The notes beneath the pieces are model-generated. The model saw only the letters and a program-made list of their open reading frames with translations, did not search any database and was not told the DNA's origin. The translations under genes and the position numbers were made by a program. A stretch of DNA of 64,000 nucleotides, from assembly GCA_026986575.1 (NCBI GenBank), contig JALSOH010000004.1, positions 124,001 through 188,000 on the forward strand, read 5' to 3'. Source of the DNA: Thermoproteota archaeon. Lineage in GTDB: Archaea; Korarchaeota; Korarchaeia; Korarchaeales; Korarchaeaceae. The stretch's first letter is position 1. Each line of letters begins with the position of its first letter. Shown in pieces: positions 8,465 to 53,993 of the stretch.

Positions 8465-8540
8465 AGCCCCGTGGTGTAGCGGCCAAGCACGCCGGGCTTT
8501 GAACCCGGAGACCCCGGTTCGAATCCGGGCGGGGCTACCA
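8465..8540 (+). tRNA. tRNA-Gln(UUG)
   Basis: Acceptor AGCCCCG/CGGGGCT, anticodon loop CTTTGAA, CCA encoded. A TATA-like AATTTTATAG precedes it. Its isoacceptor with anticodon CUG is at 59030-59105 on the other strand. Confidence 0.96.
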
Positions 8541-8575
8541 CCTCCCCCTTCCCTTCCTCCAACCATCCTAAGTGA

Positions 8576-35376: not shown

Positions 35377-35672
35377 GGGGGAGAGGAGGCCGGGGGTTAC
35401 GGCCGTAAGGCTGAGGAAGGTCCGCCCACGCCCCCAGCACCGCCTCCCCGTAAGGGGATGCCCCGAGAGGGGCAGGAAGGCCCACAGAAACGACACGTCC
35501 CTCGGGGCATGGCGATGATGCCGGTGAGGCAGAGGACCCCGAGGGGACCGGTGAAACGGGGCCCCGGCGGTGTGCAAGCCAGTCCCCGCAATGAGCAGCT
35601 GGGGCGAGCGGGGGGTAGGCGCTCAGCCGAATCCCCCAAGTACAGAAGGCGGACTATGGCCTCCACTCCCCC
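35377..35672 (+). ncRNA. rnpB: RNase P RNA
   Basis: The 5' P4 strand GAGGAAGGTCCGCCC and the matching 3' ACAGAAGGCGGACTATGG are the conserved cores, and internal archaeal elements are visible (ACAGAAACGACACGTCCC, GACCGGTGAAACGG, GCAAGCCAGTCCCC). P1 is long: GGGGGAG-A-GGAGGCC pairs with GGCCTCC-A-CTCCCCC. The length is about 296 bases. A TATA-like TTTTTAATT lies near 35349. The open frames across it are not genes. Confidence 0.92.
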
Positions 35673-51926: not shown

Positions 51927-52175
51927 TCACTCCTCGTCCGGTGTCAGATATCTCCTCTCACCGGCTATTTCGATGAGCAGCTCTCCCTTCTTACCGCTCG
52001 CTGATGTGACGACTTTGCCCATTACCTCCAGCTTAAGTAGGGCCTCCTCTATCTGTGAGAGCGATACTCCCGGTATTTTGGAGGAGACCAGCTCGTACAG
52101 GTCCCTGTCGTTTATTACCTTCTTGCTCCTGACCACATCGTAGACTACTGTGAGGAGGGGTAGGTTCCGGGACAT
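51927..52175 (-). CDS. Small winged-helix protein, unknown
   Basis: 82 residues, predicted helix-turn-helix (RDLYELVSSKIPGVSLSQIE, EALLKLEVMGKVV) with a beta wing. It directly follows the EF1-beta gene (stop-to-start gap zero), so it is co-transcribed. No named family recognised. Confidence 0.65.
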   Translation of the reverse strand: MSRNLPLLTVVYDVVRSKKVINDRDLYELVSSKIPGVSLSQIEEALLKLEVMGKVVTSASGKKGELLIEIAGERRYLTPDEE

Positions 52176-52445
52176 TCAGCCCGCCCTGCTCACTCTCTCA
52201 AGTTCAGCGCTGCTCACTCCTTCGATGCCCTGTATGACCTCCATTATCCTGTCGGTTATTCCGTCCTCCTCTGGGGCGGTGAGCACCACGCTGAGGGCCG
52301 TTATCCCAAAGCCGATGGGTTTCTCCTCGTAGCTCTCTAGACTACTCCCGATTGAGGAGAGGGCCTTCCTGAGGTCCTCAACGATCTTGGCCGATTCTAC
52401 GCTCCCATCGAGGAGCACCCTCACTAGAGCCATTATCCTAGCCAT
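52176..52445 (-). CDS. ef1b: Translation elongation factor aEF1-beta
   Basis: 89 residues, the single alpha-beta domain that exchanges nucleotide on aEF1A: LSSIGSSLESYEEKPIGFGI and TALSVVLTAPEED are the conserved core, ending in the EGVSSAELERVSR strand-helix. It sits behind a zinc-ribbon protein gene, its usual archaeal neighbour. Confidence 0.93.
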   Translation of the reverse strand: MARIMALVRVLLDGSVESAKIVEDLRKALSSIGSSLESYEEKPIGFGITALSVVLTAPEEDGITDRIMEVIQGIEGVSSAELERVSRAG

Positions 52446-52455
52446 TCAGACCACC

Positions 52456-52662
52456 TCACGGACCGACGAATCCGCAGTTGGGACAGACATACTCGTTGGC
52501 CTGCTTCCTGCAGACCTTGCACCTTATTATGATAGCCTCTCCGCAGTTAGGGCAGCGGAAGGCCACGAACCCCTGCTCGTAAGTGACCTTCTTACCGCAT
52601 GAGGTGCAGTAAACATCCTCGTCGGGAGGTATTAGGGTGAAGACTAGGCTCTCGCTGGACAC
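52456..52662 (-). CDS. Zinc-ribbon protein (HVO_2753-like)
   Basis: 68 residues with four Cys pairs: YCTSCGKK, FRCPNCGEA, RCKVCRK and YVCPNCGF. Archaeal proteins of this size upstream of EF1-beta are predicted RNA-binding zinc fingers. GTG 52662 follows GGTGTGATG; an earlier frame start at 52692 lacks a site. Confidence 0.85.
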   Translation of the reverse strand: MSSESLVFTLIPPDEDVYCTSCGKKVTYEQGFVAFRCPNCGEAIIIRCKVCRKQANEYVCPNCGFVGP

Positions 52663-52710
52663 TTCATCACACCGGTAAGGGCCCCGCCCCACGGTAATTT
52701 AAAGATGTCC

Positions 52711-53694
52711 CTAACTGGTCTGCGACCTGAACCTCTCAGTTAGGGTCACCAAGTAGGTCTTGCCGTACTTCTTCCTCTCCACGACCTTCCTATCGACTAG
52801 ATCCTTCAATAGTCTGCTTATCTTTGGTTTGGAGAACCCGGTCAGCTCGGGGAGCTCCTCCTGCGACACCTCGCCTCTCTCCATGACGACCTCTATGAGC
52901 TTCCTCTCATCCACGGTGAAGAAATCCATTATGTCGGAGGGACCCGGCTTGGGCCTCAGCCTGTAGATCAGGATCGCTACTGCCAGGCCGGCAAGCAGAC
53001 CCGTGAGGAGGGGGAGGGGTTTGAGGATCTCCCTTATTATGAACGAGGGTGACCATCCGCCTGAGAAGGGTTTGCTACCTCCTATCTCTCCGATGACCTC
53101 CACATTATAACCATGAGATGTGAACTTAGCTGCCTCCTCCCTATCTAGGCTACTACCTATCACCACCAAACTCTTCACATCCTTGAGGTGCTCCTTCAGG
53201 GCCGCTTCAAAGCCCTCGGGAGGCCTGCCGTTCATCGTGTAGATTATCGGGGCGTTCCTCTCCACGGCAACAGAGAGTGCCACCATGTAGTAGGAGGAAT
53301 TGAGCCCGTCAGCCAGCACCACTGAATCGCAGTCGTTCCAGTAGTACATAGCTAGGAGGAGGGATGTGTCGAGCCTAGTCGCCCCCCCTATCCTGCTGAC
53401 GGTCGCCCCCATTCTCCGCAGCTTTTCCTCGAATTCAATAGGGACGGCGTTAGGGGCACCTATTATGAGGATGCTCATGCCCTTACGGAACCTCATGAAC
53501 CCGGAGAGGAGGTTGAGCACCTCTCCCTCGTTGTCTGCCGTTAGATGCATGACCCAAGATCCGTGGGTTATACCGTAGGCCATGGCCACTGCCCAATCGG
53601 TGTATATGTCTCCCCTCACGATTACGGCGTCGAAACGAGCTTGCTGTCCCGAGAGGGGGATCAGGGGTATGATCAGAATGATCAGCAGGAGGAT
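52711..53694 (-). CDS. Secreted CWB2-like domain, membrane anchor and cytoplasmic winged helix
   Basis: About 328 residues. An N-terminal hydrophobic leader (ILLLIILIIPLIPLSG) is followed by an extracytoplasmic domain resembling cell-wall-binding repeat 2 (GGATRLDTSLLLAMYYW, CDSVVLADGLNSSYYMVALS), a membrane helix (LLTGLLAGLAVAILIY) and a winged helix (VSQEELPELTGFSKPKISRL, LLKDLVDRKVVERKKYG). The order suggests a membrane-bound regulator sensing the cell surface. The frame has no ATG, GTG or TTG between the tRNA-Arg gene and the leader; only ATC/CTG codons or an ATG at 53778, before the tRNA, are available. Confidence 0.75.
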   Translation of the reverse strand: MLLLIILIIPLIPLSGQQARFDAVIVRGDIYTDWAVAMAYGITHGSWVMHLTADNEGEVLNLLSGFMRFRKGMSILIIGAPNAVPIEFEEKLRRMGATVSRIGGATRLDTSLLLAMYYWNDCDSVVLADGLNSSYYMVALSVAVERNAPIIYTMNGRPPEGFEAALKEHLKDVKSLVVIGSSLDREEAAKFTSHGYNVEVIGEIGGSKPFSGGWSPSFIIREILKPLPLLTGLLAGLAVAILIYRLRPKPGPSDIMDFFTVDERKLIEVVMERGEVSQEELPELTGFSKPKISRLLKDLVDRKVVERKKYGKTYLVTLTERFRSQTS

Positions 53695-53772
53695 GGCGGG
53701 CCCGCCGGGACTTGAACCCGGGACCTCCGGCTCCGCAGGCCGGCGCTCTGATCCTTGCTGAGCTACGGGCCC
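53694..53772 (-). tRNA. tRNA-Arg(GCG)
   Basis: Acceptor GGGCCCG/CGGGCCC, anticodon stem CCGGC/GCCGG with loop CTGCGGA, CCA encoded. The last base of CCA is the first base of the reading frame of the following membrane-protein gene. Confidence 0.95.
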
Positions 53773-53828
53773 GCTCATTTGAAACCCTCCAAGTGAGAGG
53801 AGTTTGTGGATTGAAAAAGGTTAATGGA

Positions 53829-53993
53829 TCACTTCCTCACGAGCTTGGTCTTCTTCAGCCGGAGGTTCTTGCTCCTGCACCTCCTGCATCTAGTAGCGCT
53901 TAGGGGATTCCTAGCGCCGCATTTCCTGCATATCTTGTATCCCAGCAGGGCTTTCATAGCCACACTCCTTTTGAACGGGTCTTCTATCGGCAT
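53829..53993 (-). CDS. rpl40e: Large-subunit ribosomal protein eL40
   Basis: 54 residues: MPIEDPFKRSVAMKALLGYK, then a zinc ribbon with ICRKCGARNPL and TRCRRCRS, and a basic end (KLVRK). This is the archaeal eL40 without ubiquitin. GGGAGATCG lies just before ATG 53993. It is upstream of tRNA-Arg on the same strand. Confidence 0.93.
   Translation of the reverse strand: MPIEDPFKRSVAMKALLGYKICRKCGARNPLSATRCRRCRSKNLRLKKTKLVRK

Follow-up and report, generated by a model that had tools for sequence, protein, structure and literature searches.

A tRNA-Arg(GCG) gene lies in frame at the start of a sensor-like open reading frame in a korarchaeal genus

The stretch of DNA analysed here, hereafter the window, comprises 64,000 nucleotides (positions 124,001 to 188,000 of contig JALSOH010000004.1, assembly GCA_026986575.1) from an archaeon of the family Korarchaeaceae. 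On its minus strand a tRNA-Arg(GCG) gene lies wholly within, and in frame with, an open reading frame (ORF) for a membrane-spanning regulator, hereafter the sensor. Our best overall reading, which we consider quite probable from comparison of related loci, is that an elongator tRNA is nested in the sensor coding sequence and that a single transcript would have two mutually exclusive fates. The anatomy of the locus, the open frame, its conservation, a single GCG gene in this genome and the presence of RNase P RNA and RNase Z were observed directly. The elements of the locus are as follows.

52711..53778, minus strand: complete ORF of 355 amino acids, with its start codon before the tRNA
53809..53822, minus strand: weak TATA-like motif (6.4 bits), starting 50 bases before the tRNA
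53785..53790, minus strand: Shine-Dalgarno (SD)-like stretch GGAGGG, pairing at -8.6 kcal/mol with the 3' end of this genome's 16S RNA
53776..53778, minus strand: ATG start codon, 6 bases before the tRNA, in frame in 15/15 loci of the same genus with zero changes
53694..53772, minus strand: tRNA-Arg(GCG), a 76-base body (53772-53697) plus an encoded CCA, found by ARAGORN and matching RF00005 at 66.4 bits
52711-52713, minus strand: stop codon of the sensor ORF

A single codon, AGC, separates the upstream ATG from the tRNA, and the frame crosses all 76 tRNA bases without a stop, so that the tRNA is read as codons 3-28. Read in this way, the tRNA-Arg(GCG) of this genome gives MSGPVAQQGSERRPAEPEVPGSSPGGPA; an example of the tRNA-coded peptide is RPAEPEVPGSSPGGPA. 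The upstream ATG is the sole ATG, GTG or TTG of the frame ahead of the folded domain, the next being a GTG within the sequence VRGD, 74 bases beyond the end of the tRNA as called by ARAGORN. A previous sequence-only reading had described an ORF with no normal start outside the tRNA gene, its only in-frame ATG being on the far side of the tRNA, and a signal sequence beginning at the tRNA 3' end. Frame and coordinates were confirmed, and the hydrophobic core of the signal does begin at that position. With an SD-like stretch and an ATG at its start, the ORF resembles an ordinary SD-led archaeal gene, except that the start precedes the tRNA.

Matches to the sensor gene were obtained in 26/26 genomes of the class and were full-length in 25/26, the exception being a 63% complete genome (G004). 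The resulting set contains 15 full-length loci from the 16 genomes of the genus and 10 further class loci outside it. A complete, functional-looking tRNA on the same strand, with no in-frame stop, is conserved in all 15 genus loci. Agreement among 15 separate assemblies disposes of an assembly or sequencing accident as the source of the arrangement, including the error hiding an ATG that the sequence-only reading had itself named as a possible refutation.

An open frame through a tRNA is, taken alone, weak evidence. At several of the 43 other tRNA genes of this genome, ORFs starting no more than 18 bases upstream run on by chance beyond the tRNA, the longest by 138 codons from a TTG and by 114 from an ATG. 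Openness alone thus does not rule out a chance frame; the conservation of the ATG in the genus, unlike the leader of a matched tRNA-Cys gene, makes one very unlikely. An in-frame ATG precedes the tRNA in 15/15 genus loci, at -6 in 13 and at -9 in the two sister-species loci L011 and L012, a shift of exactly one codon. When changes in the 36-base leader were counted by parsimony on a tree of the C-terminal part of the protein, the three ATG columns had 0, 0 and 0 changes, while the other 33 columns averaged 4.1; no other three successive columns are unchanged, and among the remaining 33 a single column is. The tRNA-Cys leader served as the control since it, too, contains an ATG and an SD-like stretch in this genome. 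Across the same 15 genomes an ATG occurs within 12 bases of tRNA-Cys in 8/15, its position drifts, and no column is unchanged. Among the closest species (L079-L083 and L086, from G000, G007, G003, G005, G008 and G015) the tRNA-Cys leader has both the ATG and the SD-like stretch, and frames opened there run up to 79 codons past the tRNA; they are not kept genus-wide. The distance from the start of the sensor-associated tRNA to the VRGD codon is 147, 153, 156, 159 or 162 bases in the genus, all multiples of 3, and is mixed outside it. Together these comparisons point to translation through the tRNA.

The 3' end of the genome's 16S RNA, located by a sequence pattern, was used to evaluate anti-SD pairing ahead of the ATG. 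Pairing ranged from -6.9 to -9.5 kcal/mol over the 15 genus loci, with a mean of -8.6 compared to -4.4 for shuffled leaders, and 0/1000 joint shuffles were as strong. Only 1 of 43 other tRNA leaders of this genome pairs as well. Outside the genus, pairing at the equivalent position ranged from -4.3 to +2.8 kcal/mol over the 10 class loci, none of which has an ATG at -6. We discarded a switch in which the SD-like stretch would pair with CUCC codons just after the tRNA, as seen in the minimum-energy fold of the window locus. This pairing is no stronger than in shuffles (mean -12.3 kcal/mol compared to -13.0 for synonymous shuffles, with 827/1000 joint shuffles at least as strong), and the fold of the 141-base stretch is not unusual (z -1.14, 29/200 shuffles as good).

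The sequence immediately after the tRNA bears on where translation begins. Minimal numbers of changes by codon position 1, 2 and 3 in the first 51 bases after the tRNA were 8, 1 and 15 (six close loci); by this substitution pattern, the stretch right up to the tRNA end is coding. No conserved start behind the tRNA was found across the 15 genus loci. The first codon after the tRNA is ATC, ATA, ATT, TTA or TCC depending on the species. One could suppose that RNase Z frees the message at the 3' end of the tRNA and that translation then starts from a non-AUG codon (such as ATC, ATA or TTA) at or near the 5' end of this almost leaderless message. In favour of this, the tRNA end is where the signal core starts and is likewise a point from which the spacing to the domain stays in frame, and messages of the 10 sister-genus loci probably do start behind the tRNA. 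We regard such a start as improbable: the first codon is not conserved, and under such a scheme the upstream ATG and the SD-like stretch should drift freely, yet they are kept, unlike the tRNA-Cys leader. A non-AUG start just after the tRNA was rejected on this ground. The sequence-only reading had left two options, a start at ATC/CTG or a message containing the tRNA; the comparison supports the latter and not the former.

The start might instead lie inside the domain, at a GTG or ATG at or beyond VRGD, the true protein then having no signal peptide. Such codons are present in every locus, at positions that differ between species. The conserved internal GTG start after the leader, which the sequence-only reading had proposed as a refutation, was not seen in relatives, and an internal GTG was rejected as the start. 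Moreover, the hydrophobic core must be regarded as translated, because it is kept in all 15 loci with the third-position-biased changes given above, and relatives have ordinary signal peptides. An internal start is therefore extremely improbable. The tRNA could also be excised from the transcript and the message ends rejoined, given that archaea splice tRNAs and some mRNAs. Removal of 76 or 79 bases, however, shifts the frame and brings a stop within 3-11 codons in 15/15 loci, which refutes precise excision at the mature tRNA ends followed by rejoining and leaves excision of any kind next to impossible.

Several observations weigh against translation through the tRNA from the upstream ATG. The 15 genus loci are related and are hence not 15 independent trials, and at the level of the single locus SD pairing exceeds that of shuffles at p<0.05 in just 9/15. 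Possible starts within 16 bases after the tRNA occur in 5/15 loci (L006, L008, L009, L011 and L012), at differing positions. Changes within the tRNA are spread evenly over codon positions (6, 7 and 7), as for a tRNA-coded peptide without selection of its own; therefore it would be the tRNA, not the peptide, that is selected there. The TATA-like motif also gives mixed evidence across the genus. In the window it starts at -50, compared to a median of -36 for 36 other tRNAs without a tRNA just upstream, and it lies farther upstream than for other tRNAs in only 8/15 loci (L001-L007 and L010); it is near the usual place or closer in six (L008, L009 and L011-L014) and absent from L015. A promoter shift was for this reason not used as support for a long leader. 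Where the motif is close, the SD-like stretch would be present only in transcripts reading through from the upstream 54-codon gene, which we take to encode ribosomal protein L40e. In some species the primary transcript may start upstream of this gene, which may be co-transcribed with the tRNA and the sensor.

The sensor protein encoded behind the tRNA has the following parts.

53653..53694, minus strand: hydrophobic core of the predicted signal peptide, ILLLIILIIPLIPLSGQQ, residues 29-42 (hydropathy 3.70 over 12 residues), beginning at the tRNA 3' end
53092..53631, minus strand: CWB2-like ectodomain of two alpha/beta units, residues 50-229
52957..53019, minus strand: single transmembrane helix, residues 254-274 (253-273 of the AlphaFold2 model), a helix in a hydrophobic stretch
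52717..52932, minus strand: winged helix, DUF7343/MarR-like, residues 283-354 (PF24034, E 2e-10, above the cut-off)

In an AlphaFold2 model built from 28 sequences (mean predicted local distance difference test score 82), the signal helix starts at the tRNA boundary and is followed by the alpha/beta ectodomain, the single helix and the winged helix. A profile search against PDB entries matched Cwp6 (E 5e-35) and Cwp8 (E 2e-32); Foldseek matched the ectodomain to Cwp6 (E 3e-7) and the SlpA heavy chain, and the winged helix to MarR-type proteins. The earlier division into a CWB2-like outer domain, one helix and a winged helix is thereby upheld. Pfam CW_binding_2 (PF04122) scores 21.5 bits on the window protein, under its cut-off of 24.9, and matches 27/28 aligned members at E<=0.01 (best 4.5e-14), so that for this protein alone the CWB2 label falls below the Pfam cut-off and is rescued by the relatives and the predicted fold. 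DUF7343 (PF24034) scores 40.7 bits against a cut-off of 27.6 and matches 28/28 members. Binding of a cell-wall polymer by the ectodomain and of DNA by the winged helix are putative functions. The CWB2 fold is shared with clostridial Cwp6, Cwp8 and SlpA by both profile and Foldseek. Clostridial wall-anchoring proteins have three CWB2 units, unlike the two seen here, and the fusion to a winged helix is a further difference. To our knowledge neither peptidoglycan nor a PSII wall is to be expected in archaea.

Describing the sensor as a rare one-protein design, as the sequence-only reading did, overstates the case: relatives occur in 37/41 related genomes, part of them found through the winged helix alone. 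Other archaeal DUF7343 membrane regulators have the same order of signal, ectodomain, one helix and C-terminal winged helix; the present protein differs from them in its CWB2-like ectodomain and, in this genus only, its tRNA-coded N-terminus. The architecture is thus recurrent in archaea and is not the unusual part. A second protein of the same layout (382 amino acids, with a signal, another ectodomain, a helix and a C-terminal winged helix) is encoded in this genome from an ordinary ATG at about 222.6-223.8 kb of G000:C4 (L062:1456-2604), adjoining a tRNA-Leu(CAA) on the opposite strand. Other genomes of the genus have winged-helix matches with a frame length similar to that of this second protein.

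The nested tRNA is real and probably indispensable. Among the 44 tRNA matches of this genome, with anticodons of the others assigned by ARAGORN or, for four intron-bearing tRNAs, by eye, no second tRNA with a GCG anticodon was found. In both G009 and G011, the four highest-scoring Arg-like tRNAs besides this one likewise lack GCG, carrying CCG, TCG, TCT and CCT. An ARAGORN tRNA-Arg(TCG) at 8484-8554 of the window, on the strand opposite a tRNA-Gln, looks spurious; the TCG gene backed by RF00005 sits elsewhere (C6:94551-94625). Substitutions in the nested tRNA are structural: the C27-G43 pair (standard tRNA numbering) has become T27-A43 in L011-L014, and bases of the T stem have changed in pairs. 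Such compensatory changes show that the sequence is maintained as a tRNA. All genus loci share tRNA-Arg(GCG) except L004, where the orthologous tRNA-Arg (L004:2478-2556, genome G015) has the anticodon GCT and the other best Arg-like tRNAs of that genome have TCG, CCG, TCT and CCT. This is either a base error in the G015 metagenome assembly or loss of the reader of CGC and CGT. An RNase P RNA gene (RF00373, 179 bits) lies in the window at 35381-35668, shortly before a tRNA-Met, and RNase Z is also present.

These features suggest how the two products could share one transcript. RNase P and RNase Z excise a folded tRNA from its transcript, and ribosomes start poorly at an AUG that is followed within about 15 bases by stable structure. 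Here 6-9 bases separate the AUG from the acceptor stem, so that initiation should be incompatible with tRNA folding: the folded tRNA would block the ribosome, and a loaded ribosome would prevent the tRNA from folding. In the first fate RNase P and RNase Z would cut out tRNA-Arg, and the remaining message would yield, from their own starts, the zinc-ribbon protein and elongation factor 1-beta (EF-1-beta) encoded downstream, and no sensor. In the second, the ribosome would start at the SD-supported AUG, read the tRNA as codons straight into the signal-peptide core and translate the whole transcript into sensor at the cost of that tRNA. The tRNA-coded residues would form the n-region of the signal peptide and would probably be cut off, perhaps near a conserved [S/A]xQ stretch, leaving the mature sensor unaffected; loss with the signal peptide would explain why so odd an N-terminus is tolerated.

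In 15/15 loci the part of the ORF inside the tRNA contains, at codon 12 (codon 13 in two of them), a CGC or CGT, which anticodon GCG reads, and sensor synthesis would for this reason need tRNA-Arg(GCG) itself. We tentatively mention, as a rather unlikely extension, a switch within the coding sequence in which folding and processing of tRNA-Arg(GCG) turn the sensor off while sensor synthesis needs the same tRNA. If true, sensor synthesis would report the supply or processing of tRNA-Arg(GCG), a tRNA gene gating translation through itself. The same codon, and the expected collision of AUG initiation with tRNA folding, would also fit an upstream AUG used chiefly for ribosome control of tRNA release, with the fused protein a by-product. 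Such a role is very improbable: there is no in-frame stop that would end a leader peptide, the upstream ATG is the only conserved start of the sensor, and substitutions in the sensor coding sequence fall mainly at third codon positions.

E. coli tufB and tyrT operons give tRNA-mRNA co-transcripts with the tRNA outside the ORF. Like the sister-genus loci, they share with the present case a single strand and a cut that sets the mRNA 5' end; in both, unlike here, the ORF opens with a separate start behind the tRNA. We found no archaeal tRNA nested in an ORF in the literature searched (open-licence papers). The closest known system is tRNA-Sec (selC) nested in the selB ORF of Alphaproteobacteria, predicted in 2021. 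As described there (Mukai 2021, PMC8124441), it resembles the present case in that a whole tRNA is in frame in an ORF in many species and in that maturation and protein synthesis are proposed alternatives. There the tRNA forms a C-terminal extension after a functional protein, the elongation factor of that tRNA; here it is at the N-terminal end of a membrane-regulator gene, with the AUG before it, so the whole sensor depends on reading it. The present case further differs in being archaeal, in involving a standard-amino-acid tRNA of which it is the only GCG copy found, and in lacking a partnership like that of SelB and tRNA-Sec. With tRNA maturation and protein synthesis as exclusive fates, the present case would work like selB/selC, of which its N-terminal position makes it no member; what appears new is the domain of life, the standard-amino-acid tRNA without a second GCG copy and the N-terminal position. 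The same source (PMC8124441) cites a tRNA-Lys in cox1 of the Armadillidium vulgare mitochondrial genome, likewise wholly inside a coding region and in direct orientation, in a compact mitochondrial genome as opposed to one of 1.9 Mb here.

With the start codon beyond the tRNA throughout a genus, translation of tRNA sequence by ribosomes becomes a testable prediction, and it bears on the competition among RNase P/RNase Z processing, co-transcriptional translation and tRNA folding. The arrangement suggests that the n-region of a signal peptide is replaceable by whatever a tRNA encodes. Annotation pipelines would be inclined to shorten or discard such starts, and similar cases may be hidden.

The genes next to the sensor locus are given below.

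53829..53993, minus strand: 50S ribosomal protein L40e-like, 54 amino acids, upstream
52456..52692, minus strand: zinc-ribbon protein (HVO_2753/PRK14890 type), downstream
52176..52445, minus strand: EF-1-beta, downstream (EF1_GNE above the cut-off)
51927..52175, minus strand: 82-amino-acid protein, downstream (no family match; present in 23/25 class loci)

Gene order is the same in 15/15 genus loci: L40e, tRNA, sensor, zinc ribbon, EF-1-beta and the 82-amino-acid protein, with FEN1 convergent. By tblastn the L40e-like gene is directly upstream of the tRNA in 15/15 genus loci and in 0/15 other loci tested. Sensor, zinc ribbon and EF-1-beta occur together in 24/25 class loci (not in L024) and, beyond the class, in L025 and L026. 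A tRNA on the same strand lies just upstream of the sensor gene in 25/25 class loci (L001-L024 and L027) and in every one begins with GGGC, while its identity changes: in other genera it is Ile, Arg-CCT, Leu or unnamed by ARAGORN. Remoulding or repeated capture of the upstream tRNA are candidate sources of this change. In 10/10 class loci outside the genus, the sensor ORF opens with an ATG of its own behind the tRNA. We infer that tRNA and sensor were originally co-transcribed and separated by RNase Z, and that this genus has since shifted the sensor start to beyond the tRNA. Among the outside loci, L017 has an ATG within 12 bases of the tRNA and a frame that stops soon after it, an arrangement that possibly has the look of a precursor. 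In this locus (L017:2487-2561) the ATG before tRNA-Ile opens a frame that passes through the tRNA in the frame of the sensor, with the stop just behind.
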